Positions 3,001 through 25,274 of a stretch of DNA of 27,664 nucleotides are shown one piece after another. The notes beneath the pieces were generated by a model. That model had not been told where the DNA came from. It saw only the letters and a list, made by a program, of their open reading frames with translations, and ran no database searches. A program made the translations under genes and the position numbers. This DNA is from a virus: positions 1 to 27,664 of IMG/VR virus record IMGVR_UViG_3300042895_001799; one strand, written 5' to 3'. Positions within the stretch are counted from its first letter, which is position 1. The number at the start of each line of letters is the position of its first letter.

Positions 3001-4285
3001 AGAGCATTGCTCTTTCTACTGTGTAATATCTATCTAGTTCTGCTTTGAATAACTGTTTTTTTCTTGTGTCGGAAAGGTTATCCCAATTCTTCAGTCCCCC
3101 TGCTCTGGCGATTAACAAATCGCGAACTGTATTCTTTACTTCGTCAGGACTCGGCCTGCCTACAAACGCCGTTGTGACAACTCCAGACTCGCGAAGTCTT
3201 TCAAATGCATTAATTATGTCGCTATTTGGGTCATTGCGGTCTGTTGATTTAGCTCCCGTTTTTTCAATTACATCATCTACTTTTTGCCTCATCCCTCTTA
3301 GGCTTTTTCTACCACGCTTAGCGCCATCTTTGAACCACATGGCTAATCCGGGAGTTGAGTCCGTTTGAACCGTTGAAGGAATTGTGCTTCTTCCATTGAT
3401 GTCCTCGGAAAAAACGCGTGACACATCTTTTAAGCTGCCTAGGATTTTTTTCCAACCGCGGACATTGTTCTTTAGCGGTTCGTCTTCTACGGCTAGGACC
3501 CCAGCTCCATCAACACCGAGAAGAGGTTCGTCAGCTCCGGAACTTAGACCAGAAGCAACTCTTTTTGCCATGTCAAATATTTCGTTAGCAGAGAAGCCAA
3601 AGCAGTTAGAGCCAGTGGAGTCTGTAAATTGGTTAGCAGCAGGAGTTCCTGGAGGGCAGCGCATCTTTCCGTCTGCGTCCAAGATAAGACCAGCGGCACG
3701 GGCGGCTCTTTGAAGAAATCCAGCACCACGCATTGTCTCGCCAATTGTTTGACCAGGCAAACGTTTTACTTGAGGAGAATCAAAGAAGTCTTCACCATCA
3801 GCCGTGAATGGATTCATCAGTTTTTCTGAATCCTCTATTATTTCGCCAGTTCTTACGTTAGTTTTATATTTCCTAATTCTTATCGAAGCATTTGATTTTT
3901 TTACTGGTTCTTCTTCTGCATCCATCCATCCCCAGTTTGGAGTCTGTAGACGTGGATTGATTCTGCTTTCATAAGATGCAGCAAACCTAAAAACTTTTCC
4001 TGGCCCGCCTTTTTGGTTGGGGTTATACCTATACCCTCCAAAATTTTCAACGCCAGGCACCGAACCATTGTTGGTTCTTTTTTTGCCATCTGAGTCGTTT
4101 TTATTTCCAGCACCCGGCATGGCTTTCACTGCTATTACAGGATTAAGTGAGTTCTGAAGAGACGACGTGCTTACAGAGTTTCTGAAATCAACAGCAGCTT
4201 CATTGAATGACTTGCGTTGAGGTATGGGTGATTCGAGCTTGCTAGTTAGAAAAACTCGGGTCTTTAAGTATGACTTACCCGTCAT
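1..4285 (-). CDS. Giant virion-type polyprotein with HExxH metallopeptidase-like motif (partial, runs off left edge)
   Basis: An uninterrupted leftward reading frame starts at the ATG at 4285, 17 bases after the stop of the acidic protein, and is still open at base 1, giving 1428 visible residues. A conspicuous motif RCPPGTPAANQFTD...GSNC has cysteines at residues 210 and 228. GLSSG follows at residues 246-250 (bases 3550-3536), the same pentapeptide that punctuates the neighbouring 2910-residue protein. A zinc-metallopeptidase signature SHEINH sits at residues 547-552 (bases about 2647-2630), with H548, E549 and H552 as the expected metal ligands and catalytic glutamate; a later EIMAEVATL segment could give a third ligand (inference). 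The remainder is highly charged, lysine/glutamate-rich and coiled-coil-like, including an 11-residue tandem repeat. No standard phage family is recognised for the whole. Position after portal, protease and acidic protein suggests a virion protein. The ribosome-binding site is weak. Confidence 0.8.
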   Translation of the reverse strand, partial: MTGKSYLKTRVFLTSKLESPIPQRKSFNEAAVDFRNSVSTSSLQNSLNPVIAVKAMPGAGNKNDSDGKKRTNNGSVPGVENFGGYRYNPNQKGGPGKVFRFAASYESRINPRLQTPNWGWMDAEEEPVKKSNASIRIRKYKTNVRTGEIIEDSEKLMNPFTADGEDFFDSPQVKRLPGQTIGETMRGAGFLQRAARAAGLILDADGKMRCPPGTPAANQFTDSTGSNCFGFSANEIFDMAKRVASGLSSGADEPLLGVDGAGVLAVEDEPLKNNVRGWKKILGSLKDVSRVFSEDINGRSTIPSTVQTDSTPGLAMWFKDGAKRGRKSLRGMRQKVDDVIEKTGAKSTDRNDPNSDIINAFERLRESGVVTTAFVGRPSPDEVKNTVRDLLIARAGGLKNWDNLSDTRKKQLFKAELDRYYTVERAMLSQVLKSYMDFPDHMRSVDFIEWNEKANDNANADWLFDTGNMKKRSTRIRINVPRTLGALSKSLPSIEENERLRIDAVNAANPGEAATELNDFLVSSEAYSEETAALIGGAESFARHIMSHEINHTLQINAFLGMVERQIDEDGFLQLPPDGRGNPGRLVKSFNEITNAEMQNLMSSIIGGETRIREIDEVVKKSQAVRWLAGKYVEFDKSSDVITALEIMAEVATLREQGIVHGAMVDDALAWVDSYRDNRFNDERGISDAEETARFFELVDRVEAGERVFEPINDSEAAAMEKRRQENEKKLRKEQIENEKKLRKEQIENLDSDSLIDEIADLEFEIEQIDAKLDIADNPEAASRRAEAMQEIALARKTWSQKNPGYPKSALDARVSRNRDEKDKLAPDALQRKKDKKDLDRVIQDAESSSEEELIERIAFIEQRIKNKNTSEDDKKKLKKYKEEYRKAYRDKRKKDGDDSNAQKLNREIDNKVNNRLNPKKQKPEEPSESAPKTVGKKPKPIRRPKNQAATTRLAQSERKKLFDEANEKEQKAIIEMSDPLYKDIAKILDPEQRSLAIDLIRKNNDALVALGYGYDPESIEQGSLENQMDNILMPLLDIIERSELSNSVEIQIEMDLTPEQIAGDDLTPITIDGFISGNLIDEENGIIVKRPMWSRKTGRNQQRVVVQLEEGQKGYYPHWSDEDSERPDNFVQKVVSPPGRIEIVERRQEKDGSTTFIARVVEQKGTEEILDGILTSDPNNEIPPAAKLQIENSVNKHIVERRSRGLHNEQKTPSSVKEAIEDKNNQSFDDVNDSGGSFGEPIDTDYADSVSESEDGPDEASEEMFGKPQTREERRKDRVEKFAEITKALQELFESKESNEELGISFEDIDPEIIELINNTSPAELEDILADEAEKVHEEIDKRPRVNLWETGLESIIEEPSPTTEQKPAANNGRPTVGKKRTKATTAIENVVGNGANRNQASARAQNELNRIQSLLEGDDFTNYSGG
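2041..2110. repeat. 33-bp tandem repeat, about 2.1 copies, in coding sequence
   Basis: Two adjacent identical 33-base units (2041-2073 and 2074-2106) plus the first bases of a third. In the leftward frame each unit encodes the 11 residues ENEKKLRKEQI, a charged heptad-like segment. This lengthens a coiled coil within the left giant protein. The exact DNA identity suggests a recent in-frame duplication, in contrast to the GLSSG motif, whose copies have diverged in codon use. Confidence 0.9.
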
Positions 4286-6012: not shown

Positions 6013-9000
6013 CTATTGAGCGTTAACGAGTTGTTTGATACTTGGAGCATTTGCCCCTTTTGTTCTTACCTTTTTACTATTCCTGGAAAATCCTTGCGAA
6101 CCGGAAACTGCTTCCAGCATCCGTTTCCTTATTTCAAGTAACGGCCCGTACTGATTGTCAAGGGCACTTTGTGAATCTGCAATTCCAGCATCAAGTCCTC
6201 GCAGGGTCATTTCCATATCCTGCTCTAACTCTAATTCAGCATCGGTTGGGTCTTCGCGTCCAGAAGTTAATGAATCAAGCATTTCAAAAACTCGCTTTTG
6301 ACTCGCTTCCATCTTTTTCATTTCTTCCCGCTCCTTGCGAGCCTGGATATCGATGCTGTTCATCTGGTCAACTATTGAGTCAATGTAGCCATTCAGGCGC
6401 TTGATTGAGTCAATAGCCTGCTGTGGATTGTCAATATCTGTATTCACCAGGTCATCAACAGTCCTATTTGGATTGTCGGCAATTTCGGAGAACATGTTTG
6501 CCAGAACTTCTCTAGCACGGAGAGCGTTCTTTAATCTAGAGAATTGACTCTGGGCAATATCTGTAAAATGTGCATTTTTAACTTCATCATTAAGCATGTA
6601 TATTGGTGGCGTTAAGTCGGAATCGCTCAATGCGCCAGATGCTTTGCCTCTTTGTGTTGCTAATGAAACGAAATCAGACACGTCTTTTGCGGAAGGAGTC
6701 TTCCTGGATGGGCCTGCTCCGGACGACAATCCAGAAGAACGTTTGCCACCTTCGATGGCTTCAATTTCATCTACCTGAGCCCTAAGTCTGGCAAGACGAG
6801 CAGCATATTCATCATCTGATTCACCGCTGGCCGTAAACTGAGCAGCGTTGCGGAATCCGTCAGGGTCAGACATAACTTCATTGATTAAGTCTCGTCTGGC
6901 AGTCAATCTTTCAATTTGACGATTGTAAACATTCTTTCTTGGGTCAACGTTTTGTGCTCCCAAGTCATTGTCTGCTATCCATTTTTCGTGTTCATTTATT
7001 GATTCCGAAAGCTCCGCAGAGGACATTCTGGCAATATCTGCCAAATTCATCCTTTGTGGTCCGCCTGGCATAAATTCAGTTACTTCCCTAGGTCTCCTGC
7101 TTTGTTCTTCTGGCTTCTCCGTAGATACACCAAGTCCCTCGAGTATTTCAGTATTCGCAGTAGTGACTCCACGCACCTTCATTCCCTGAGTGTCGACTTT
7201 TTTAATTTGGAAAATTTGTTCTTTTGTTAGTTCTGGTTTTCCTTTTGCAGCCAATTTTTCGTTGACATAAGCAGTTGCTCTATCTAGTTCTTCATTTGTA
7301 AATCTTTGATTTGCTTTCCCTACTCCTTTGAGGATTTCGCCTTTATCTCGAGCTGCTTTTCTCTTATCTCTGTACGCAGTGTAGGTATCATATAAAGTGC
7401 CATCTCTTTTTGGCGTAAACGCATTATTAAAAATGTTTTTGATTTCTTTTTCTGAAAAACCTTGGTCTATTAAAAATTTCTCCGCTCTTTCTTTAGCGAC
7501 AACTTTTGTCGGAAGCTCGTCAATTATCGCTAAATCAGCTCCAAAAATTGCAGAAACACTCGCCTCTGGGTAGCCAGCATTTCTAATTAGGTCAACCAAA
7601 TCGTCTACCCTGTCGGACTGAATTCCCCTTTGACTAGGGATTGATTCGTTTAGCCAGCCTCTTTTAAATTCATCTTCAGTTAAGTCGTAGCCCAGTGCCT
7701 TTAATGCTTCTGCAAATTTTGGATAGTTAGCCATTGTGGCGGTTTGATTTTCGTCAATTATCCCCAGATATCTACCCAAAGACGTTGGGTCAAAATTTGT
7801 TCTGTTATTTGCTTCGGTGAGTGTCTTTTTTTCTTGAGCGCTGGCGTTTGCCTGAACTATCTCTTCACTCGTTACGTTGCCGGAATTAGACACGCCGAGT
7901 GGTAAGTCTTGCGTAAAATCATCTTCTAGGTCCGGAACTATGAAGCCTTCAAAGAACTCTTTTTCGTTATTATCACGTGTAAATCTGAATTCATCTTCGG
8001 TCAACCTCATGCCACTCATGTTGTCAATCCATGCTGGAGCAGCCCTAAATCCCCATAGTTTTCTTATTTGACTATTTGCTGAACCCTTGCCGTATGCGCT
8101 CGAAGAGCCATCTCTCAATTCAATAAGTTCATTAACTACGATTTCTGGGATTCCAGAGCCAGGCTCATCCCATTTTTTTATGTCAGCTTCTTTTAGTCCA
8201 AGAAGACTGGCAATCACGTTGTCTGGTAACTGCTCGCCATTCGTGTCTGTAAATATTTTACGCAGCCTATCGGTAGATAGCATCCATGGGTCTCCTGGCT
8301 GCCTGCCGTCATTAAATGCCATAGAGCCTAAACTAAGGTCAAATTTAGCTCCGAGCCTTTTCTTAACATCTTTGTTTACACTGAACTTATTGTCATTAAT
8401 TACGCCCCATCCTTTTTGTCTCGGAGGGATTACTGTTGCGCCAACTGAACGCGGGCCCCTTGATTCAATTTCTCCAGAGTCGTAGTCCGAGCCGCCATAT
8501 GGGTTGGTGTCGCCTCCAGAAGAAAGACCACGCCTTCGAGCGCGGTTGTTTGCATTCCCACGAACGCCGTCCATGTCTCCAGGAGCGGAACCCCTACGCT
8601 TTCCAGAGATTGTCTGAGCACGGGTACGTACTCCGTCCCTAAATGCTTGGCGCTCTTCTTCGGTGAATGGTTTCCTTCTAGCTACTTCGCCAACTGTTCT
8701 CTTGGCTCTGCCAGAAGACAACCCTTCACTCTCTCCAGGAGCATTTGGCAATTCATCTTCATCTGATGTGTAGTCAAGTATCCACGCAGCGGAACCCATG
8801 TCTAGTTTTTTTCTTGCTCTAGTTAAAGCAACATAAATTACATTCATGTGCTCTTGGTCTGGCCAGTCGTATTTGCCGGTTTTTGAGTTGCGTACTGGCC
8901 CCCAGAAATCATTCCAGAGTTGAACATTGTCTTCTTCTAAGCCCTTAGCAAGATGAGCAGTTAGTATTTTTACGTCTATTGCTTTTTGGGGCCTCTTCAT

Positions 9001-12000
9001 CCCAGCTTGTTTTTCTATCTTGCTCCATTCGCTGCGTCTCAAATAACCTAAGCGCTTGTATGTGTCAAGAGCATACTGAAGGCCCTTTATTTTATTTTCA
9101 GGAACTCTACCTCGGGCTAATTTCTCTTCGGCGGCTTGAATTATTTCATCTATTTCGCCTTCTGGAGATATTTGAGAAAATGGCTTAAGGTCTCCACTGC
9201 TACCAAGCTTGACAGCGCTATACGCAGCCTGAAGAGCTTCTTTAATCTCATCTTCACTCATTCCTCGGGTAGGAAGAACCCTTCCCCACACCCCATTCAC
9301 CTGTTTGGGAGTAAAACCAATATCCCTAAGCCGCTTGTCTACAGCGTCACCCTTGCCAATGAAGGGGAGGTTGTTTAAAGTCACACCAGAACCAGAAACT
9401 GTGAATGTTGTTGGCTTTTTAACTTCCCCTTTCCTTCCGTACTTCAGGTCTCCAAAATTACCACTTGAGCCAGGAGAAGTATCACCAAAATCGTAATCTT
9501 CAATACCTGCTCCACTGTCTCCATTTTCCAAAACGTCTATAAGATTCGAAAAAGCTTTTTCTCTTTCCTCCGGAGTTGAGGCGCTAAATTTCCATGGACC
9601 ATTATCCTTCCATGTTGCTCCAATTCTCTTGATGTAATCCTTAATAGGTAAAGTTTCACCGGTAAAAATTATTGCATCTTCTGTAATTTCATACTCGGCA
9701 TCTCCAAAAGTACCAATGTCTCCGACTTCAAAAGATTCAGGTAAATCAAAACCAGCATCTTCGCCATCTTCACCTGGTGACCAAATTTCAATATTTCCAA
9801 GAACCCTTTCAAGGTCAGCGACGCTGTGTTCGAGGCCAAGGTTAAATAAAGTTTTTGTCTTTTGAGATGCGGTTCCTTTGTTTATAGCATCCTGTATTTC
9901 ATTAATGCTGTCGTATTCTTCAAGTTCCTTATGCATTTTTTTAGGTCTTCTAGCGGTTCCCTTACTTCCCCCACCTATTATATATTTCCAGCTGTCAACA
10001 AAGCTTTCAAGCTCTGCATAAGCTCGCGCCGTTGTTCCAACAACTCTTGGCTCTCCGACAGGATTATCCAGTTCACGCAGTATTGCTTTAATTACTCCTG
10101 CATTGGTTCTTGCTAAAATCATTCCAGCATCAGTCATGCTGTTTGCCTCAACAACTTCGCCTTTTGCGTCACCTCGTCCAAACATTCTTCCAAACATGAT
10201 GCCAAACAAACGCAAAACCCTATTACCTGGGCCAGCTATTTTGTCATTAAATCTAAACACGTCAGTTAATGGCAGTGTGTATTCAGTATTTCCAGCAAGA
10301 ACATCCATTTCGTTTTTTGCACCGCGGAAACTGTAGATAGCTTGGTTGGGGTCTCCAACTATAACTTTTTGAATATCTTGCTTTTGTATTATTCCAGACC
10401 ACACAGGGTTGAGGTCTTGTGATTCATCAAACATCATCAAGTCAATGTTTTGACCAGGGATAGCTTCTCCGCCAGAAAATGAAGGATTAGCCAAGGCAAA
10501 CAATTTCGTCATAGTATTGTTGCTGAACTGCATGCCGTTGTCATCGCTAGTATCAGTTCTACTCTGCCATATTGCATTAGCGAGAGACATTAATTCTTGA
10601 GGAACATCATCTATTTGTGCATCATTAAACATAAAATGACTTGTCAATAAAGTATCGTCTGCGGATATCTCATACCTATCAACCGCTTGGTTCGCAATCC
10701 TGGAAACGTCATCAGCGTCGACGGAATTTCCGTCGATAACCAAACCTTTTACTTTAAATTTTGTAGTTATATCTTTTGGACGATTTGGTGTTCCAGTAGC
10801 TCCCTCGTTTAAGTCATACCTATTTTTTACATGTGCAGCCTCTTCCTTGCCTTGACTCTTATACCAGCCGTATGTGACAGAATCTAAAGTTCTTACTGCT
10901 GTACCCGTGTCGCGGAATCTTCTTCTTGCATCTCGCGCAGCCGTTTTATTGAAAGCGACATAAGTTTTTTTACTTCTAGGCTTTTCTCTTTTGAGTCTCT
11001 TAGCCAAAGATACGAGAGTACTTGTTTTGCCACTACCGGCTAAAGCACCAACTACTACGTCAGCGCCTTCCATTACTGCATCTATAATGTCTTTTTGCTC
11101 TTCGGTCGGAGTATTCCCCCCGTCCTGAGTGTAGTCGTAGTCGCTTCTTTGTGGTTTTGGGCTTTGACTGATTAGGTCAGCAAGTTTTTTACTATTTTCA
11201 TAATTAGGCATGTCGTCAGCGCCTGCGCCGGAAGAAAGTCCTGATGGGTTATCTTCGTTGTCGCCATTCTCCATCCACCAGTCAATTGCTTCATCTTCTG
11301 AATTAAATGGGCCGACTACTCCATTTGTATCAAAATCCGGTTCGTCACTGTATCTTCCCTCGTAGTCGTCAAATACGAGTTTTTCCATGTACCAACCATC
11401 ACCAAGGTTTGCATCTTTACCAAACTTGCCATCAGGGTTTCTTGCGAAGTCGGTAGTCATTCTTTCGTAATTGCCTCTATGCAGAACCAATCTATTGCCG
11501 TAGCCAGGAAGGTCCTTTATGTACTGTTTTGAGTCACTTGGGGCTTCTCCAAGGTCCTCAATAAATCCGTCTCTTAATTCCTCACCGAGTGGGCGAATGC
11601 CTCTCTCGGCACGTATTTTTTCTCTTGCTTCCCTGTAAGCCTCCAGCTCTTCTTCTTCAGCGTCGAAGCCAGGCCATTCAATACCTTCCTTTGCAAGTAA
11701 GGAATCTATTCCACCAGTAAGACCCCTGTCGTCAAACCTGTCAAGAACTTCGTCGACATCGCCAAGGTATTCATTGCTTTCGCGGAACTTGCTTATCTTC
11801 CGTTTTCTATTATCGCGCCTACTGCCAGAACTCAATCCAGAACCAGATTTTCTAAGTTCGCTAGCGCGCCTCATTTCGGCAGCCCTAACCTTTTCTCTGG
11901 TCATGTTGAATTTTTCGGCTGCTTCGTCTAACGAGTTGCCGTCCATTCTGAAGTCAAATATTTCTTTATCAGAAGCTTCTGCATTTGAATCTGCTCCAGA

Positions 12001-14745
12001 AGATAGACCGCCTTTTTTGTCGAAGCTATTTATACGAGTATTAAGTTTTTTCTTCAGCATTTCGTATGTTTGCTCGGCCTGATTGGCTATGTCCCACAGG
12101 TCCTGAAGGCGCTCGGCTTCTCTTCCAGCCACCGCCTTGCTCATTTCCTCGTCGCGCATCAGAATCTCGGTTAGACCTGCTTCGTCCTGATAGGTGAGCC
12201 TGTCCACCATTTCGTCGTTCCACTCATTGTTAATATCTTTGAGTATCTCTTTCCATCTTGTTCTCAGGTCATAAAGAGCATCTTCGGCTTCTTCTTGCGA
12301 GAGGTTGTCAAAGTTTACTTCATTGACAATCCTGTCATGCGAATCGAATGCGTCATCGCCATTCTCGTTGTCAAGAACTGCGTCCAAAGCTAAGCCTGGA
12401 TTTTTTGAGTAATCCTTGTTTGATTTTTTGTCTTCACCGGAACTCAAGCCTTCTTTAGATTTTTTAGGCTTAGGGGCTCTCAACCTGCGTGCAATGTCCT
12501 CAAGTGCAGCAAGGTAGTTCTCACGTCTTGCAACATATGCGTCGGCAGCCTCAAGCATTCTTCCTGCTTCGTTTTCAGCCTCGACTGCATCCATGTCGTA
12601 TTCGCTTTTAAGAGTTTCGACGAGTGAATCAAAATCGTTATTTATAACATCTTCAGAAAGTAAGCCATCATTTCTTGCTGATGCTTGGTCTTTTTTTATC
12701 TGTGCGCCTATATTGTTGCGCGCATCTCCCAGTTCGTCAGGGTCCAAAGTATCTAAGTACTCGCCAAACTTTTCCCTAGAAGAGTCAGTATCCCACCTGT
12801 CATCCATCTCATCAAGGATGTCGTCTAGTTTTTTTGAAGCACCATCAGATGAATCGCTGCCAGACGAAAGTCCACGAGCTGCTGGTTTATTTGCTGCTTG
12901 ACCCTGCTGTTGAGCTTCGAAAGCCTGAGTAGCCCGTCTTGTGTCTACTCTTCCTCTTGATGCGTAGTCATTAACCCCTGGAACTGCTGGTCTCTCGAAA
13001 GCGGTGCCTTCTTGAACAAGACCGTCATTATCGCCGTCCCACGCTTTTGGGTTAAATCTTGCAGTTAAACCTCGACTAGAATTGCGTATCTTCCCAGATA
13101 CGCTTCTTCCTAAGGCTTTCTCTTGTTGAAAAAAAACAGGAGAGGCCGCCTCCGACACAGCCTCAATGAATTCTTTCGTTACGCCATTCGTAAAGACAAT
13201 TCCACCATCTTCAACATACGAGTCGACCATGTGGTAATTAATTATTGGGTCTAGCAGCTGTTTCACCTCAAATGCTTTTTCTGGTGAAACTGGGAGAACG
13301 TAACCAGCGTCTGGAACTCTATTCAAGGATTTTTCGCTGTACTCGTCAATTCTGAACAGTGATTTTAACTCTTCTCTTTTAACCCAGTTGCGACGCAGTG
13401 CAATTCTTGCACTTCCATCAAGGAATTCTCTTGGGTGCTTGGCTTCTATTTCTTCGAGCCACTTAACTTCTTCTTCTTCACGTTCCATGTCATAATTCAT
13501 TTTCTGAATTGGACCCATGGTCACTACGCCGTCAGGGATTACGGCAAATCTGCATTTGCCTTCTGGCTCTACGGCCAAGGCAATTATTTTGCACTTTCCG
13601 TTACCTTCATACAGGATGCAGTTTGCGCATTTGACACCTATTTTTGCTACAGGGTTTTCTGCTGGAGACTTGTAGCCAGCCCAAACACCAGTTGAGTCTT
13701 CGTTGAACTTGCCGTATCTTTTTGTAATCTTTATCAACGCTTCTGCGAGGTCTCGTTCTTCGTCTACTACCTTGGGATTTGTCCCTGGAGTAGGAGCCCC
13801 AGTTCCCTGATAATTAAAACGAACCATTGGCGGAGATGATGGGCTAGCTCCAGGAACGGCGGACGGTACGACTACTGGGACGAAAGGGTTCTGTGTAGTC
13901 ATTGGCTTAGATGGCATGCCCATTGGCATTCTCTGAACTGGCTTTGCTACTGGTGATTCATATCTTTCGGGTCTGCCAAACATGAAAACGCCATCATCAC
14001 CCATGTGATATCTGCACTTGTAGTCAGAAGGCTCACCCTGTTCGCCATCTCTGCTGAAATGAACAACACCATTATCCATCTTCAGAATTTTTACTGGCAT
14101 TCCAAGTCGTGCTGAAAGTTCTTCTTCAAGTTTTCTCTCAATGTCAGAACCTGGTTTTGGCTGCCCATAAGTGTCAGGCATTCCCATTGGAGAAGTCATC
14201 ATTGGAATCATCCCTCCCTTCTCATCAGACTTTACAGATATTGTTCCAGTTAGCTGATTTGCACCGTGAAGTACTGGGCTAACTTCGTAAAGCTCAACTT
14301 CGTAGAGGATATTTGCCTGAGAGCCTTGGTCGAATTGAGCACGAAGGGTTTTATAGCCAATGGACCATTCTTGTTCTTCACCAAAAAATGCAACATTGGC
14401 AAAGGCTTCACGTCCCTTTTCTGAATTTAAATTAAACTGAACTTTTGCATAAAGACCACCAATTCCAGCAGACCTCATTTTTCCTGGGAGGCGGGGGTCA
14501 GATGGCGCAACTTCATATATCTCAAGAACTTTACCGATTGGGTCATTCCAGTTATGTCCCCAAACAACACGTGGTTTACGACGCATAAGGCTTTTAGTGA
14601 ATGCACCGGTAGCGCAAACGTCACCAACGGAGTCTTTGTTTCCGATTCCAGCAACGAAACATTCAACAATGCCCTGAGCTTGGTCTAAATTTACTTGCCC
14701 GGCACTGGCCTTGTATTGTATGTCGCTAAAGACGGCAGAAGACAT
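6013..14745 (-). CDS. 2910-residue polyprotein: HK97-type prohead protease + GLSSG-punctuated cargo including UvrD-like helicase
   Basis: The start is fixed by AAAGGAG four bases before the ATG. Residues 1 to about 175 are a prohead protease: VVWGHNW gives candidate catalytic H64, EWSIGY gives S128, and ELYEVSPVLHGAN is the usual family ending. A four-cysteine cluster follows (C373, C376, C385, C398), then a calcium-loop-like DGDNDG at 570-575. The pentapeptide GLSSG occurs at residues 625, 766, 913, 970, 1169, 2008, 2073 and 2672. It separates two acidic helical segments, a helix-turn-helix-like segment (913-970), an unknown segment, a complete superfamily 1 helicase (1174-2007), a short very basic segment, a 600-residue unknown segment and a 239-residue coiled-coil C-terminus. 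Prohead proteases are normally about 200-250 residues, so this is more than ten times the usual size. Residues before the motif are often K/R-rich. Protease identity is firm; self-cleavage at GLSSG is inference. Confidence 0.95.
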   Translation of the reverse strand: MSSAVFSDIQYKASAGQVNLDQAQGIVECFVAGIGNKDSVGDVCATGAFTKSLMRRKPRVVWGHNWNDPIGKVLEIYEVAPSDPRLPGKMRSAGIGGLYAKVQFNLNSEKGREAFANVAFFGEEQEWSIGYKTLRAQFDQGSQANILYEVELYEVSPVLHGANQLTGTISVKSDEKGGMIPMMTSPMGMPDTYGQPKPGSDIERKLEEELSARLGMPVKILKMDNGVVHFSRDGEQGEPSDYKCRYHMGDDGVFMFGRPERYESPVAKPVQRMPMGMPSKPMTTQNPFVPVVVPSAVPGASPSSPPMVRFNYQGTGAPTPGTNPKVVDEERDLAEALIKITKRYGKFNEDSTGVWAGYKSPAENPVAKIGVKCANCILYEGNGKCKIIALAVEPEGKCRFAVIPDGVVTMGPIQKMNYDMEREEEEVKWLEEIEAKHPREFLDGSARIALRRNWVKREELKSLFRIDEYSEKSLNRVPDAGYVLPVSPEKAFEVKQLLDPIINYHMVDSYVEDGGIVFTNGVTKEFIEAVSEAASPVFFQQEKALGRSVSGKIRNSSRGLTARFNPKAWDGDNDGLVQEGTAFERPAVPGVNDYASRGRVDTRRATQAFEAQQQGQAANKPAARGLSSGSDSSDGASKKLDDILDEMDDRWDTDSSREKFGEYLDTLDPDELGDARNNIGAQIKKDQASARNDGLLSEDVINNDFDSLVETLKSEYDMDAVEAENEAGRMLEAADAYVARRENYLAALEDIARRLRAPKPKKSKEGLSSGEDKKSNKDYSKNPGLALDAVLDNENGDDAFDSHDRIVNEVNFDNLSQEEAEDALYDLRTRWKEILKDINNEWNDEMVDRLTYQDEAGLTEILMRDEEMSKAVAGREAERLQDLWDIANQAEQTYEMLKKKLNTRINSFDKKGGLSSGADSNAEASDKEIFDFRMDGNSLDEAAEKFNMTREKVRAAEMRRASELRKSGSGLSSGSRRDNRKRKISKFRESNEYLGDVDEVLDRFDDRGLTGGIDSLLAKEGIEWPGFDAEEEELEAYREAREKIRAERGIRPLGEELRDGFIEDLGEAPSDSKQYIKDLPGYGNRLVLHRGNYERMTTDFARNPDGKFGKDANLGDGWYMEKLVFDDYEGRYSDEPDFDTNGVVGPFNSEDEAIDWWMENGDNEDNPSGLSSGAGADDMPNYENSKKLADLISQSPKPQRSDYDYTQDGGNTPTEEQKDIIDAVMEGADVVVGALAGSGKTSTLVSLAKRLKREKPRSKKTYVAFNKTAARDARRRFRDTGTAVRTLDSVTYGWYKSQGKEEAAHVKNRYDLNEGATGTPNRPKDITTKFKVKGLVIDGNSVDADDVSRIANQAVDRYEISADDTLLTSHFMFNDAQIDDVPQELMSLANAIWQSRTDTSDDNGMQFSNNTMTKLFALANPSFSGGEAIPGQNIDLMMFDESQDLNPVWSGIIQKQDIQKVIVGDPNQAIYSFRGAKNEMDVLAGNTEYTLPLTDVFRFNDKIAGPGNRVLRLFGIMFGRMFGRGDAKGEVVEANSMTDAGMILARTNAGVIKAILRELDNPVGEPRVVGTTARAYAELESFVDSWKYIIGGGSKGTARRPKKMHKELEEYDSINEIQDAINKGTASQKTKTLFNLGLEHSVADLERVLGNIEIWSPGEDGEDAGFDLPESFEVGDIGTFGDAEYEITEDAIIFTGETLPIKDYIKRIGATWKDNGPWKFSASTPEEREKAFSNLIDVLENGDSGAGIEDYDFGDTSPGSSGNFGDLKYGRKGEVKKPTTFTVSGSGVTLNNLPFIGKGDAVDKRLRDIGFTPKQVNGVWGRVLPTRGMSEDEIKEALQAAYSAVKLGSSGDLKPFSQISPEGEIDEIIQAAEEKLARGRVPENKIKGLQYALDTYKRLGYLRRSEWSKIEKQAGMKRPQKAIDVKILTAHLAKGLEEDNVQLWNDFWGPVRNSKTGKYDWPDQEHMNVIYVALTRARKKLDMGSAAWILDYTSDEDELPNAPGESEGLSSGRAKRTVGEVARRKPFTEEERQAFRDGVRTRAQTISGKRRGSAPGDMDGVRGNANNRARRRGLSSGGDTNPYGGSDYDSGEIESRGPRSVGATVIPPRQKGWGVINDNKFSVNKDVKKRLGAKFDLSLGSMAFNDGRQPGDPWMLSTDRLRKIFTDTNGEQLPDNVIASLLGLKEADIKKWDEPGSGIPEIVVNELIELRDGSSSAYGKGSANSQIRKLWGFRAAPAWIDNMSGMRLTEDEFRFTRDNNEKEFFEGFIVPDLEDDFTQDLPLGVSNSGNVTSEEIVQANASAQEKKTLTEANNRTNFDPTSLGRYLGIIDENQTATMANYPKFAEALKALGYDLTEDEFKRGWLNESIPSQRGIQSDRVDDLVDLIRNAGYPEASVSAIFGADLAIIDELPTKVVAKERAEKFLIDQGFSEKEIKNIFNNAFTPKRDGTLYDTYTAYRDKRKAARDKGEILKGVGKANQRFTNEELDRATAYVNEKLAAKGKPELTKEQIFQIKKVDTQGMKVRGVTTANTEILEGLGVSTEKPEEQSRRPREVTEFMPGGPQRMNLADIARMSSAELSESINEHEKWIADNDLGAQNVDPRKNVYNRQIERLTARRDLINEVMSDPDGFRNAAQFTASGESDDEYAARLARLRAQVDEIEAIEGGKRSSGLSSGAGPSRKTPSAKDVSDFVSLATQRGKASGALSDSDLTPPIYMLNDEVKNAHFTDIAQSQFSRLKNALRAREVLANMFSEIADNPNRTVDDLVNTDIDNPQQAIDSIKRLNGYIDSIVDQMNSIDIQARKEREEMKKMEASQKRVFEMLDSLTSGREDPTDAELELEQDMEMTLRGLDAGIADSQSALDNQYGPLLEIRKRMLEAVSGSQGFSRNSKKVRTKGANAPSIKQLVNAQ
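8725..11226 (-). other. UvrD/Rep-type superfamily 1 helicase module (polyprotein residues 1174-2007)
   Basis: All core helicase motifs are present in order: Q motif TPTEEQKDII; Walker A GALAGSGKT with K1240; motif Ia VAFNKTAARDARRRF; motif II DESQD at 1440-1444; motif III GDPNQAIYSFRGA from 1464; motif IV ILARTNAGVIKAILREL; motif V ILTAHLAKGLE near 1925; motif VI VALTRARKKL with R1976/R1978. Catalytic residues look intact. Between motifs IV and V lie two roughly 60-residue segments (about 1680-1745 and 1780-1845) that look like divergent copies of one small domain (IGATWKDNGPWKF versus IGFTPKQVNGVWGRV). GLSSG stands immediately on each side of the module. The family unwinds DNA with 3'-5' polarity using ATP. 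Confidence 0.9.
14221..14745 (-). other. Prohead protease domain (HK97 gp4-like, residues 1-175 of the polyprotein)
   Basis: This is the N-terminal serine protease module. Visible signatures are the early GDVCATGAF segment, GHNW with H64, PIGKV, the WSIGY serine block with S128, and the LYEVSPVLHGANQLT end block with E149/E151/E154 as candidates for the acidic residue. In the HK97 family this enzyme cuts scaffold and capsid precursors inside the prohead. Here it is covalently attached to about 2700 further residues. Confidence 0.92.
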
Positions 14746-17119: not shown

Positions 17120-18427
17120 ATGACAACTGACTGGAATAAAGTCTTAGAGTATCTTCAACCTAAAATGCCTCCATTCTGTCCCGAAGAGCCATCTGTTAAC
17201 CAAAAAGTGTTTTTAAGAACAAATTCGCTTGAAGGTTTATTTGGAGGCGCAGCTGGCGGTGGGAAAAGCTCGGCGCTGTTGATGTCTGCTTTACAGTATG
17301 TTGATATTCCTAATTATTCAGCAATTCTTTTTAGGCGCACATTTGCCGACTTATCGCTCCCTGGGGCACTCATGGACAGATTTAAAAGCTGGATAAATCT
17401 ATATGACGACGTACACTGGAACAACAACAGCTTCGTAGCAACATTCCCATCAGGAGCCAGGGTGTCCTTTGGTTACCTCAATAATGCTGGCGACTACTTG
17501 CGATACAAGGGTTCCGAGTTTCAGTTCATAGGCATGGACGAAGTTACCGAAATACGAGAATCCGACTACAGATACCTATTCTCCCGCCTTAGGCGCCCAT
17601 CTTCTGGTCCACTTTCAAGGGTTCCATTGAGAATGAGGGCGGCATCCAACCCTGCCCCTAACTGGGTTAGACAACGCTTCATCGTTGAAGGACCAACAAC
17701 TGGAAGAATATTTGTACCCAGCAAGCTTACCGACAACCCAGGAATTGACGCAGCTTCCTATAGGCAGGCCCTACAAGCCCTAGACCCAATAGAAAGAAGA
17801 AGGCTGGAAGAGGGTGACTGGTGGTCAACCAGCCTAGGAACACTATTTGATAGAACGTCAATAGTAATACTTGATTCTAGTGAAATTCCTCAAATAACGA
17901 GTTCAGCAAGAGCAGTGAGGTTTTGGGACCTTGCTGCAACCGAGCCAAGCCACTCAAATCCGAATCCCGACTATACGGTTGGGACATTGATGCTCTTTGA
18001 CCAAGGCATTGCCTACGTTCTCGACGTAAAGAGGGTTAGGGTCAAAGGGGAAAAGGTGGAGCAATTGATTGCCCAGACAGCCTACGAAGACGGCCATGGA
18101 GTTCCAATAAGAATGGAACAAGAACCTGGCTCCTCTGGTAAAGCCCTTGCTGACCAGTATGCGAGATATGTTGTTCCGGGTTACGACTTCGGGGCAATCA
18201 AGGCAACGGGTGACAAGGTCACCAGAGCACGCCCACTGGCTGCTGCTTCTGCTAACGGCAACCTCAGGGTGGTCAGGGGCCCATGGCTGACCGATTGGCT
18301 AGATGAGTTCTCCAGCTTTCCAGAAGCAACAGACCATGATGACCAAGTTGACTCCGCCGTTGGAGCTTTTACACATTTAGCTGGTTTGGGGTTGCCACAA
18401 CGAAGACCTATCTCTATACTCATTTAG
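17120..18427 (+). CDS. Terminase large subunit (DNA packaging ATPase/nuclease)
   Basis: A 435-residue motor of DNA packaging. The ATPase half has Walker A GGAAGGGKS (residues 42-50, K49), the FRRTF segment after it and Walker B FIGMDE with D140/E141. The RNase H-like nuclease half has RFWDLAAT (D270) and the terminal DHDDQVDSAV block (D407, D408, D411). Length is normal for the family. AGGAAG before the ATG supports the start. It is the first gene of the rightward block and is divergent from the portal across only 49 bases; in most HK97-like phages the two are adjacent on the same strand. No small terminase gene is recognisable nearby. Confidence 0.95.
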   Translation: MTTDWNKVLEYLQPKMPPFCPEEPSVNQKVFLRTNSLEGLFGGAAGGGKSSALLMSALQYVDIPNYSAILFRRTFADLSLPGALMDRFKSWINLYDDVHWNNNSFVATFPSGARVSFGYLNNAGDYLRYKGSEFQFIGMDEVTEIRESDYRYLFSRLRRPSSGPLSRVPLRMRAASNPAPNWVRQRFIVEGPTTGRIFVPSKLTDNPGIDAASYRQALQALDPIERRRLEEGDWWSTSLGTLFDRTSIVILDSSEIPQITSSARAVRFWDLAATEPSHSNPNPDYTVGTLMLFDQGIAYVLDVKRVRVKGEKVEQLIAQTAYEDGHGVPIRMEQEPGSSGKALADQYARYVVPGYDFGAIKATGDKVTRARPLAAASANGNLRVVRGPWLTDWLDEFSSFPEATDHDDQVDSAVGAFTHLAGLGLPQRRPISILI

Positions 18428-21658: not shown

Positions 21659-22192
21659 ATGAACTTCATGGGGTTGGACCTTTCACTCACGTCCACTGGG
21701 TGCTGTATTAATGAAGAATCATTTGTTATAAAACCAAAGTCAAAAGGTGCAGAAAGACTTTCTATTGTCTCGGACATAATAGTTGCAACTGCTGTTGCTA
21801 AAAATATAAACCTAGTGCTGATAGAGGGATATGCATTTGGGGCCAGGAACAGTCAATCACACAGCATTGGCGAGCTTGGCGGTGCAGTCAGGATGAAGTT
21901 ATGGGAATCTAAAATACAATTCATTGACATCCCCCCAACGTGTAGAGCAAAATTTGCAACAGGTAAAGGCAATGCTGGCAAGAACGAAGTTATTTCTTCG
22001 ATATCTGCAAAAACTGGGATTGTGTGGTCAGGAGGGGGAGCGGACGATATGTGTGATGCGTGGATTCTTGAACAAATGGCAATGGCTAAAATTGAAATTT
22101 CAAGATATGATTGGACGAAATTACAACTATCTGCCCTAGACAGTATTGAATGGGGACCCCTAACAACCATGATGGAGTCAAGTGAGAAATAA
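21659..22192 (+). CDS. RuvC-like Holliday junction resolvase
   Basis: A 177-residue protein with the RNase H-fold resolvase pattern. First strand GLDLSLTSTG carries D7, VLIEGYAFG carries E56, and GGADDMCDAWIL carries D130/D133, giving the four metal-binding acidic residues in order. GKNEVISSI (from 107) is the usual basic helix between them. Length is close to cellular RuvC (about 170). It resolves branched DNA from recombination or replication before packaging. The ATG at 21659 is used; M4 is an alternative. The next gene overlaps its end by 11 bases. Confidence 0.87.
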   Translation: MNFMGLDLSLTSTGCCINEESFVIKPKSKGAERLSIVSDIIVATAVAKNINLVLIEGYAFGARNSQSHSIGELGGAVRMKLWESKIQFIDIPPTCRAKFATGKGNAGKNEVISSISAKTGIVWSGGGADDMCDAWILEQMAMAKIEISRYDWTKLQLSALDSIEWGPLTTMMESSEK

Positions 22193-22538: not shown

Positions 22539-22828
22539 AATTAATGAAAAGAAAAGTTTCTTTATTTCCAAAAAATTTAACAAAACACTGGGAATCAGCG
22601 GCTCATAGAAGATACTCAAGTATGAACGACGATGATTTATGTCCATGGAATCTAAGTCCTAAAACAATTGACGAATTCGTACTAGCATGCGACAAACGCA
22701 ATGAGTGGCATAAGAGTAACGTAGGAGACCCTCGCTACTCTTGGTGGTCATGCATATTGACGCACGACCTGATGGAAGACATTGCAAGAACGCTAAAGGA
22801 AGTAAAAGATGCGCAACGGAATACATGA
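22535..22828 (+). CDS. Small unknown protein
   Basis: A 97-residue protein whose ATG overlaps the preceding stop (ATGA). It is basic at the N-terminus (MKLMKRKVSLFPKNLTKHW) and tryptophan-rich in the middle (DPRYSWWSCIL). No motif or family is recognised. Overlapping junctions on both sides show it is translated as part of the operon leading to the ParB-like gene. Confidence 0.7.
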   Translation: MKLMKRKVSLFPKNLTKHWESAAHRRYSSMNDDDLCPWNLSPKTIDEFVLACDKRNEWHKSNVGDPRYSWWSCILTHDLMEDIARTLKEVKDAQRNT

Positions 22829-23588
22829 GTCACTACTGCCATTGGCTGTAGACATTGAAAAACTTAGATTGCTTGATGGGAATCCAAGAATTGGAGACGT
22901 TGATGCAATTGTTGCTTCATACAAAGAATTTGGTCAAGTTAAGCCAATAGTTGCTAGAAAAAATGAAGACGGGACAGCAACTGTAATAGCTGGAAATCAT
23001 CAACTCCAAGCAGCATCTGCTTTAGGGTGGGACAAGATAGCCGTTGTTTTTTTAGAGGCAGACGACAAGAGAGCAATAGCTTTTGCCATAGCGGACAACA
23101 GGACAGTTGAGCTTGGATACACCGAACCCGAACTCCTTGATGGATTGCTTATTGAGGTCGCTGATTACTATCCAGAACTCTTTGATGCACTTGGATGGGA
23201 TGAATTTGAACTTGCTGGTATCGAATACGAAGCAGAAAGAAGCGGAACTGATTTTTCAGAAGCTGGAGTCTATGTTCCGCCATCTGTTGTGCAAAAAAAT
23301 GAAGAGCCAGCAGAGCAGCAGGTATTCCATGTTTCACAGTCTGAAAGTGGAGAGAACAGGATAGTCGCTGACCCATCGTCCGACCAGCGTGACGTTGCAG
23401 TAAGAGGTTCATCCGTGACTGGAGCAACTCCTAGGGCAGTTGTTCAATACACCATAGTTTTTGATGGAATCGACCAGCAAACAAAATGGTACGACTTTAT
23501 TAGGTGGTTGAAATCAGACCCAGGAACAGACGGTGCCACTACAGCGGAGCGCTTAATTAACTTCATAGAGGCACATACCGAAGTATGA
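22809..23588 (+). CDS. ParB-like nuclease-domain protein (IbrB-like)
   Basis: A 259-residue protein with a ParB/sulfiredoxin-type domain in the first 110 residues: LLDGNPRIGDVDAI, the helix SYKEFGQVKPIVARK, the nucleotide-site motif IAGNHQLQAASALGW (GNHQLQAA at 62-69) and AIADNR. The C-terminal third has VQYTIVFDGIDQQTKWYDF, a ferredoxin-like strand-helix segment seen in phage ParB-like proteins. AAGGAAG precedes the ATG. There is no ParA partner or ParB DNA-binding helix-turn-helix, so it is not a partition protein. It overlaps the PAPS-reductase-like gene by four bases, as in IbrB/IbrA pairs. Confidence 0.82.
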   Translation: MRNGIHESLLPLAVDIEKLRLLDGNPRIGDVDAIVASYKEFGQVKPIVARKNEDGTATVIAGNHQLQAASALGWDKIAVVFLEADDKRAIAFAIADNRTVELGYTEPELLDGLLIEVADYYPELFDALGWDEFELAGIEYEAERSGTDFSEAGVYVPPSVVQKNEEPAEQQVFHVSQSESGENRIVADPSSDQRDVAVRGSSVTGATPRAVVQYTIVFDGIDQQTKWYDFIRWLKSDPGTDGATTAERLINFIEAHTEV

Positions 23589-24736
23589 CAAAGCAAAGAA
23601 TGTTTATCCCAGAGATGAGTTGCATTGACGCAGCGAGAGCAAGATTACGTCACGTATACGATATATTCGATACCGTTTGCGTTCAGTTCTCTGGTGGAAA
23701 AGACTCCACTGCCGTTTTGTACCTAATGAAAGAGATACATGAAGAGCGAGGGCTTGGTCCAGTAAAGGTTATTTTCCGTGATGAAGAAATGGTCAGCCCA
23801 ACGGTAATTGAATACGTTGAAAAAGTTAGAAATTACGACTGGGTTGATATGGAGTGGTACTGCCTTCCATACGCCGCAGAGGTATGGGTTCTAGGCACGA
23901 GAGTTACAACTCTTCTATGGAGTAACGCTAGAAAAAACCAGAATCGTCTTGTTAGAGAAATGCCATCATGGGCAATAACAGCTGAAGATTTTGGCCTGAC
24001 AAACGATGTCTCACTTCCAGAACAAACGGACTACTACACAATGCAGGGAAAGACCGGGAACGTTGCTTTCGTTACGGGCGTCAGGGCTAGTGAGTCGATG
24101 GTTAGATATCGTTCTTGCGTCCAGAAGCTAACAGAAAGCTACATAGTCACGCCATACAAATTAAAAAAAGGTATACCTTTAAAGTTTGCAAAAATTATAT
24201 ACGACTGGAACATCAATGATGTTTTCAAGTTCATAACGGAAGAACACAATGCTGAGTTCTGCGAATATTACGATTTGGCTTCCTTGACCGGAAGTAATAC
24301 CAGAGTGGGGATTCCGCTTCACAGTGTTGCTATCAGAAGAATAGGCGATGTCGTTGCCACGGAACCGGAATTTTACAACAGGCTGTGGGAGTGCTTTCCA
24401 GAGATAGACGCCCAAAGGCGCTGGTGGAAAGAGTTTGATTCAGAAAAATTAATAGAGAGATACTCTAAAAGAGGATTCGATGGGGCATCTGACTTCATCG
24501 AAGACTACCTGTACGGAGAAAGACGGAAAAGAGACGCAAGGGCGTATGTTGGCAGGTTTAGGAAAAAGCATTTTGAAGACCCAAATGGCTACCCGGTAAG
24601 TTGGCTTATTAGAATGCTGGTTTTGAATGATATTGACGTAAATTCACCCACACCGGTAGGTCCTGGCACAAAAGCTCACGCCGTGAGAAAAATTGATGAA
24701 GAGGAACAAAATGTTGACACAACCTTTGAATATTAA
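23585..24736 (+). CDS. PAPS-reductase-like PP-loop ATPase (IbrA/DndC-like)
   Basis: A 383-residue protein of the phosphoadenosine phosphosulfate reductase superfamily. CVQFSGGKDSTAVLYL holds the PP-loop SGGKDS at 36-41, and VTGVRASESMVRYRS (from 163) is the second nucleotide-binding signature. It lacks the C-terminal catalytic ECGLH of assimilatory PAPS reductase in the visible sequence. It resembles IbrA and other DndC-like proteins that occur beside ParB-like genes. Members adenylate a substrate; the substrate here is unknown, with DNA sulfur modification, nucleotide modification or regulation all possible. It starts within an ATGA overlap and is followed by a second ParB-like gene, overlapping by 26 bases. 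Confidence 0.85.
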   Translation: MTKQRMFIPEMSCIDAARARLRHVYDIFDTVCVQFSGGKDSTAVLYLMKEIHEERGLGPVKVIFRDEEMVSPTVIEYVEKVRNYDWVDMEWYCLPYAAEVWVLGTRVTTLLWSNARKNQNRLVREMPSWAITAEDFGLTNDVSLPEQTDYYTMQGKTGNVAFVTGVRASESMVRYRSCVQKLTESYIVTPYKLKKGIPLKFAKIIYDWNINDVFKFITEEHNAEFCEYYDLASLTGSNTRVGIPLHSVAIRRIGDVVATEPEFYNRLWECFPEIDAQRRWWKEFDSEKLIERYSKRGFDGASDFIEDYLYGERRKRDARAYVGRFRKKHFEDPNGYPVSWLIRMLVLNDIDVNSPTPVGPGTKAHAVRKIDEEEQNVDTTFEY

Positions 24737-25274
24737 ATATGTTGATATTTCAAATCTATGCGTACCTGAGTGGAGGGCTACATGCATTCTCAGACCGGAC
24801 TTGCTAGTCCTGTCTTCTTCTTTATCCGAATTTGGGTTCATACAGCCAATACATGTAAGAAAAGCAACCGGAGAGATAATAGACGGCAATGAAAGATATT
24901 TACTTTCTTTAAACGTGAAGCAAATAAAAGAAATAATCAATGGGAAGATTCCAGTTGTAGAGCACGACATCGACTCCCTAGAGGCAATGATGCTTCATTT
25001 GCGACTAAATAGAGGCAGGGGAACGATAGTTGCCAAGCCGATGTCTAACATAATAAAGAAATTAAGACTTTCTGGCAAGTACAAACTTCCCGACTTTGAT
25101 TCATTGTTGTGCATGAGGAGCGATGAGTTGTCACTGATGCTTGATGGGTCTTTAGTAAAAACAAGAAAAATATCAGAACATAACTATTCCAGAGCTTGGG
25201 TTCCCGTGGAGGCCCCTCCTGGGACCATCGATTCTGGCCCAAGTATTGAAAGACCACCAAATGCTGATAGGTGA
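24711..25274 (+). CDS. Second ParB-like protein
   Basis: A 187-residue protein starting at the ATG at 24711, chosen because GAAGAGGAA stands just upstream; an in-frame TTG at 24693 is a weaker alternative. The ParB-like domain shows VDISNLCVPEW, SSSLSEFGFIQPIHVRK and the IIDGNERYLLSL motif (58-62), corresponding to the GxxR nucleotide site, followed by a helical LRLNRGRGTI segment. The C-terminus is short and proline-rich. It is clearly different from the first ParB-like protein, so the pair is not a recent duplication. It probably works with the PAPS-reductase-like protein. Confidence 0.75.
   Translation: MLTQPLNIKYVDISNLCVPEWRATCILRPDLLVLSSSLSEFGFIQPIHVRKATGEIIDGNERYLLSLNVKQIKEIINGKIPVVEHDIDSLEAMMLHLRLNRGRGTIVAKPMSNIIKKLRLSGKYKLPDFDSLLCMRSDELSLMLDGSLVKTRKISEHNYSRAWVPVEAPPGTIDSGPSIERPPNADR

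Follow-up and report, generated by a model that had tools for sequence, protein, structure and literature searches.

A conserved gene trio of two ParB-like proteins and a PP-loop enzyme as a putative phage DNA-modification module

ParB-like proteins have been noted singly in phage modification cassettes, with DpdA (PMC6392294), in a thymidine-hypermodification cassette (PMC11955845) and near CmoX (PMC12783734), and the role of the ParB that heads such cassettes has been called unknown (e.g. PMC12783734). The modified base dPreQ0 was measured in Rosebush DNA (PMC6884629), and a thymidine-hypermodification cassette resembling that of Gordonia phage Wooper was reported for Tonitrus (PMC11955845). 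PP-loop proteins also have described ParB-superfamily companions. In phage records, the IbrA/IbrB pair is described as co-activating the expression of prophage genes, an annotation going back to Sandt et al. 2002 (as cited in PMC10434257). In phosphorothioation, DndC needs Fe-S cysteines and a reactive sulfur-transfer cysteine dyad (PMC10853773, PMC11662687), and DndB, too, has been assigned to the ParB superfamily (PMC10853773, PMC12704722). Nuclease or NTPase activity is possible for ParB/Srx proteins, which have been proposed as conflict effectors (PMC12839542, PMC10853773).

Here we describe a trio of genes, encoding a ParB-like protein (ParB1), a PP-loop protein and a second ParB-like protein (ParB2), in a 27,664-nt (27.7 kb) tailed-phage fragment from IMG/VR (IMGVR_UViG_3300042895_001799), hereafter the window. 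According to Pfam and PHROG scans, the window also encodes portal, protease, terminase, recombination and head-tail genes. None of the literature searched describes the three genes as one unit, and an earlier ParB/PAPS mention may exist.

Gene order and distribution of the trio

The three genes were confirmed as tightly coupled reading frames on the plus strand (Table 1), in agreement with the overlapping set proposed in a preliminary description of this DNA; ParB1 and the PP-loop gene overlap by 4 bp, and the PP-loop gene and ParB2 by 26 bp. The ATG at 24711 is a likelier start for ParB2 than the upstream TTG at 24693 because AGAGGAA, a ribosome-binding-like sequence, precedes it. The trio lies downstream of the terminase large subunit (TerL) and RuvC-like genes, both within 4.4 kb, and it belongs to a core packaging/head region, not to an accessory region. 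Elsewhere in the window, a 2910-aa protein encoded on the minus strand (6013-14745) combines a prohead protease at its N terminus (Peptidase_S78, residues 24-169) with a UvrD-type helicase (residues ~1209-1983) and resembles the head-packaged, injected "polyvalent proteins" of phages. An open reading frame of more than 1400 aa on the same strand (2-4285), open at the window edge, had no Pfam or PHROG match.

Table 1. Positions of the trio, its conserved elements and two context genes in the window
Feature	Positions	Strand	Details
Terminase large subunit (TerL)	17120-18427	+	context gene, ~4.4 kb upstream of trio
RuvC-like resolvase	21659-22192	+	context gene; Pfam RuvC 0.005; conserved near trio in relatives
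ParB1	22809-23588	+	259 aa; Pfam ParB_N 2.7e-8; phrog_723 1.2e-35
ParB1 C-terminal tail	23436-23585	+	VVQYTIVFD..QQ.KW.DFIRWLK; conserved in trio ParB1 proteins (alignments)
PP-loop protein	23585-24736	+	383 aa; PF01507 1.1e-8; phrog_2302 5.6e-74
PP-loop motif SGGKDS	23690-23707	+	residues 36-41; invariant in 53/53
Motif GxRxxES	24077-24097	+	residues 165-171; G, R, E and S invariant in 53/53
ParB2	24711-25274	+	187 aa; phrog_2159 1.3e-24; ParB_N 0.004

Since the arrangement recurs in dozens of divergent viruses, it is not due to chance. Among 80 near viral relatives, ParB2 was present in all 80 and ParB1 in 78, the PP gene being at the contig edge in the two exceptions (L062, L078). For a wider view, proteins were clustered at 80% identity, leaving out IbrA-type clusters and one cluster with a solo PP gene (L133). 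In the 41 clusters with at least 1.5 kb on both sides of the PP gene, ParB1 was found upstream in 38, ParB2 downstream in 40, and both in 37 (37 of 42 with L133); adjacent genes mostly overlap or lie a few bases apart. A second ParB-like partner, initially taken to be uncommon, is thus the rule in this PP-loop branch. A survey in which the third gene proved usually absent or unrelated in relatives had been named as an outcome that would speak against the set, and the opposite was observed. The same order occurs in the annotated phages Gadjet, prophi79-1, Salgado, Bacillus phage 022DV001 and Rhizobium phage RHph_I4; with the PP protein of Bacillus or of Rhizobium as query, scans retrieved no locus or two.

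The two-gene IbrA/IbrB form constitutes a different branch, which occurs among phages, including those of Streptococcus and Lactobacillus, and in a handful of bacterial genomes. Bacterial genomes seldom carry the PP-loop family (5 of 299): four cases are IbrA/IbrB-type pairs, the IbrB-type neighbour being present in 4/4, and the fifth lies on a contig with phage-like genes, including a Pyr_excise relative and a helicase. One virus lineage (L104, L133, L138, L163, L181) carries the PP-loop gene with neither ParB and with an adjoining helicase gene. In L104, L133, L138 and L181 a Pyr_excise-like gene is located just upstream (PF03013, 4.8e-18 in L133), and an upstream reading frame with a GQHRL motif in L104 and L181 (phrog_5931 in L181) is possibly a stand-in ParB/DGQHR protein. 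In Microbacterium phage Rasputia (L087), where no ParB was found, a PP-loop relative is the last gene of a row that contains three glycosyltransferases, an acetyltransferase and a methyltransferase and may be a further hypermodification or glycan island.

The PP-loop enzyme and its IbrB-type partner

The PP-loop protein is labelled PAPS reductase or IbrA elsewhere in databases. In an alignment of 53 diverse sequences the DWxxxD motif is invariant together with the two motifs in Table 1, and the enzyme, judged by these residues, keeps its ATP site. The same alignment contains no invariant cysteine. The most conserved one, C226, occurs in 49 of the 53 sequences and is replaced by Asn in all six IbrA-type rows; a sulfur role for C226 was considered and rejected because the residue is not invariant. 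Single-sequence searches of the PDB with the PP-loop protein or ParB2 gave no match, and profiles and models were needed. The AlphaFold model of the PP-loop protein (pLDDT 88.5) has FAD synthase and PAPS reductases (CysH) as its closest folds, with TilS, TtuA and NcsA ranking lower.

The lack of an invariant cysteine argues against DndC-type sulfur chemistry as well as against PAPS reduction, for which CysH requires a conserved catalytic cysteine. For a protein that has no invariant cysteine among 53 sequences, exceeds CysH in length and is tied to ParB partners, a role as a true auxiliary metabolic gene, namely a PAPS reductase for sulfate assimilation, seems very improbable despite the Pfam PAPS_reduct match, the database labels and the interpretation of such a phage gene as an AMG in one paper (PMC10434257). 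For the phage "PAPS reductase" genes of this branch, DNA modification is a likelier function than sulfur metabolism.

The DndC, BrxP and SspD models also match the PP-loop protein, weakly, and together with the ParB-superfamily membership of DndB these matches might suggest phage-encoded phosphorothioation, in which a DndC-like enzyme would insert sulfur into the DNA backbone and the ParBs would act as DndB-like regulators. We consider this unlikely because even the best cysteine, C226, falls short of invariance. DndA/IscS-, DndD- and DndE-like genes were not seen among the window genes scanned and the neighbour families examined, but the window is a fragment and a host IscS could serve. The initial designation of the protein as DndC-like holds at the level of the PP-loop superfamily and fails beyond it, as the DndC cysteines are absent. 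The lower-ranking matches to TilS, TtuA and NcsA would allow an enzyme acting on RNA, presumably tRNA, in the manner of TilS or NcsA/TtuA. By both rank and TM-score, FAD synthase/CysH-type folds fit better, enzymes of the NcsA/TtuA type employ an Fe-S cluster, and the constant coupling to two ParBs together with the cassette link of ParB1 points to DNA and not RNA, leaving RNA modification with a slim chance.

ParB2 is an IbrB-type ParB/Srx-fold protein with DGxxR and NR motifs, and it aligns with IbrB of Streptococcus, Lactobacillus and Flavobacterium phages. Its ParB_N match is below the Pfam cut-off. The ParB2 profile matches ParB/Noc PDB chains at 2e-9, and the AlphaFold model built from a 45-sequence alignment (pLDDT 89) matches ParB/Noc structures with E ~4e-7; profile, model and fold search thus agree on a predicted ParB fold. 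ParB1 and ParB2 are different yet distantly homologous (hhalign 98.1%, E 7e-14). Pfam found only ParB_N in both proteins, with no HTH domain after it, and no ParA gene was present among the window genes scanned (part of the ORFs of the fragment), so that neither protein appears to be a partition ParB of the ParABS type.

ParB1 and the modification cassettes of actinophages

The best clue to the function of the trio is the homology of ParB1 to the ParBs of modification cassettes. ParB1 has a ParB/Srx-fold NTPase domain (residues ~14-110) with GNH and ADNR motifs and PDB matches to Noc at 4e-6. The tail following it is swapped for other sequences in the ParBs of Tet/JBP, preQ0 and Mom cassettes, and a common N-terminal domain with a tail varying with the cassette suggests that ParB1 could be an adaptor. 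With the ParB1 profile, the gp1 proteins of Lars, Heath, Stinger and Wooper score 114-123 bits; none of the four is matched by the ParB2 profile. Gadjet gp1 shares 48-58% identity with the other cassette gp1 proteins over the ParB domain.

Among Bclasvirinae and their actinophage relatives, a ParB homologous to ParB1 opens the slot upstream of TerL, and the remainder of the slot varies. Lars, which is classified as the same species as Rosebush and was used as its stand-in, has the order ParB-DpdA-QueC-QueD-QueE-FolE. The slot holds ParB-Tet/JBP-type oxygenase-kinase in Heath, Stinger and KayaCho, and ParB-Tet/JBP-aGPT-PPlase2-5hmU kinase in Wooper. In Gadjet (Pipefishvirus) it reads ParB1-gp2-gp3-PP-ParB2-TerL, with TerL directly after the trio; Mycobacterium phage Athena likewise has the trio. 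The slot is empty of any cassette in Thonko, a member of the same subfamily in which TerL is gene 1, and contains a sole gene labelled adenylate kinase in CharlieGBrown. RuvC-like genes are also located near the equivalent slot in Bclasvirinae, and the trio has a position near terminase, RuvC or portal genes in Gadjet, prophi79-1 and Salgado. ParB1 itself belongs to the gp1-type family. Among the genes of the window module, Pfam and PHROG recognised no enzyme of established base-modifying activity. The idea that the set may modify phage DNA has gained strong, if indirect, support from the membership of ParB1 in the cassette-ParB family and from the location of the trio in the slot that proven or predicted modification cassettes occupy in sister phages.

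Other ParB1 relatives have similar surroundings. Five of six further relatives of Gadjet gp1, sampled across the list of its relatives, adjoin recognised modification enzymes, namely methyltransferases, Tet/JBP, queuosine genes and, twice, Mom (PF25680, 4e-61 and 1e-46). We scanned 80 immediate neighbours and 60 distant genes at 80 viral loci with ParB1-type genes (50 after dereplication). The neighbours included Tet_JBP (11), QueC (4), 5hmU-type nucleotide kinase (3), TAGT (3) and ADDT (3); the distant genes on the same contigs included none of those families and three GTP cyclohydrolase I (FolE) genes. The enrichment, with FolE counted against it, has a Fisher p of 6e-5 for a profile (A6) seeded partly with cassette ParBs and for phages that are related and not independent. 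Some database labels of such neighbours differ from our matches. Heath gp2 (L185, 785-1759) is labelled "queuine tRNA-ribosyltransferase" and matches Tet_JBP (PF12851, 5.5e-6), so the label looks wrong. Gp46 of Microbacterium phage Pickles13 (L193, 4488-5114), labelled "acetyltransferase", is a Mom protein (PF25680, 1.2e-46) directly 3' of a ParB1-type gene, and Sonny gp71 shows the same pairing.

These neighbourhoods also bear on two other explanations. An IbrA/IbrB-type pair with a second ParB might act on phage or host gene expression via nucleotide sensing, as the alignment of ParB2 with phage IbrB and the co-activator annotation could imply. We regard such a regulatory module as doubtful: the reported IbrA/IbrB biology covers one genetic island and gives no biochemical activity, and regulation would leave the ParB1 relatives beside Tet/JBP, DpdA, Mom and methyltransferases unexplained. 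A module for counter-defence or superinfection exclusion, working by nucleotide depletion or by nicking, would draw on the nuclease or NTPase capability of ParB/Srx proteins and their proposed role as conflict effectors. With the PP-loop and its motifs as the most conserved part and the trio in the core packaging/head region, there is little to recommend it, and counter-defence by the trio could only be an indirect consequence.

Putative mechanism and relation to known systems

Taken together, the trio is probably a phage DNA-modification module, as far as can be judged from gene content and homology. ParB1 would be a general NTP-binding, DNA-handling subunit common to many phage modification cassettes, with a tail matched to the enzyme it serves and delivering DNA to it. 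The PP-loop enzyme would supply the chemistry, converting ATP to AMP and PPi, and might adenylate the DNA target at an oxygen, be it that of a base carbonyl, a base substituent or a phosphate, which a nucleophile would then replace, probably without Fe-S or persulfide chemistry. ParB2, an IbrB-type protein, would be the obligate partner of that enzyme. The safest statement of the mechanism is a putative ATP-dependent adenylation of a substrate oxygen by the PP-loop enzyme.

In some lineages other than that of the window, the product is probably modified further by a GNAT acetyltransferase or a small methyltransferase. A small GNAT-like acetyltransferase adjoins the trio in 10 lineages (L109, L112-L115, L119, L122, L123, L129, L158), between PP and ParB2 or just 3' of ParB2, and the small methyltransferase phrog_11826 is coupled to it in seven (L085, L098, L103, L105, L111, L120, L126), all outside the clade of the window. 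Salgado and Bacillus phage 022DV001 are examples of the form with the methyltransferase. Searches of six large window relatives (100-158 kb) for N6/N4 methylase, GNAT and phrog_11826 found none of these three families. Mutual exclusivity of GNAT and methyltransferase was considered and dropped: no lineage has both, and 10 and 7 of ~42 lineages are unremarkable by chance (p ~0.1, hand estimate). An HNH/zinc-finger endonuclease-like gene is found near the trio in 17 lineages (L086, L098, L100, L103, L105, L107, L109 and ten others), and the L086 copy matches phrog_2340 (endonuclease).

Several observations weigh against a modification module. One lineage has the PP-loop gene with neither ParB, IbrA/IbrB were reported as co-activators of prophage genes and not as DNA modifiers, and the trio of the window is not directly upstream of TerL, in a clade without a recognised base-modifying enzyme adjoining the trio. 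More tentatively, the trio might install an undescribed adenylation-dependent DNA mark, with ParB1-type proteins as general adaptors in post-replicative DNA modification of phages, in which one NTPase core would be combined with differing tails for each chemistry (preQ0 insertion, Tet-based hypermodification, Mom, methylation, PP-loop). This possibility, which we would not yet put ahead of its negation, would explain why a ParB heads so many unrelated phage modification cassettes. If true, phage "PAPS reductase" genes that are counted under sulfur metabolism would in many cases be DNA-modification enzymes. Should the genes of this branch serve DNA modification, a large set of freshwater viruses, together with several actinophages in laboratory use, would carry an undiscovered DNA mark, which could be sought now in cultured isolates of Pipefishvirus such as Gadjet, with Thonko as the cassette-free relative.

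Compared with known systems, the PP-loop enzyme has its best fold match (E 5.6e-7) in FAD synthase/FMN adenylyltransferase, the eukaryotic PAPS-reductase-like enzyme, whose adenylation chemistry it may share, whereas the likeness is confined to the core (TM-score to query ~0.37) and the trio has no FMN-related context. BrxP of BREX type 4 likewise contains a PAPS-reductase-like domain, with a weak model match, but spans 779 model positions and has extra domains and other partners. Phosphorothioation also combines a PP-loop ATP pyrophosphatase with a ParB-superfamily companion, but the trio enzyme lacks the Fe-S and dyad cysteines and is phage-borne. The initially proposed link to IbrA/IbrB stands for the PP-loop protein and ParB2, as both systems place a PP-loop protein with SGGKDS, GxRxxES and DWxxxD next to an IbrB-type ParB. 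It does not extend to the two-gene form: the trio adds a second, upstream ParB, and its PP-loop protein is shorter (383 versus 408-475 aa), with C226 at the position of an Asn in IbrA types. With the left-end cassettes of actinophages (Rosebush-type preQ0 and Tet/JBP), the trio shares a homologous ParB as the first gene and, in sister phages, the position before TerL in the vicinity of RuvC and portal genes, whereas its chemistry genes are PP-loop and ParB2 instead of DpdA/Que or Tet/kinase. On these comparisons, the trio is most likely a variant of the phage modification cassettes that a ParB heads, built around a core resembling IbrA/IbrB.
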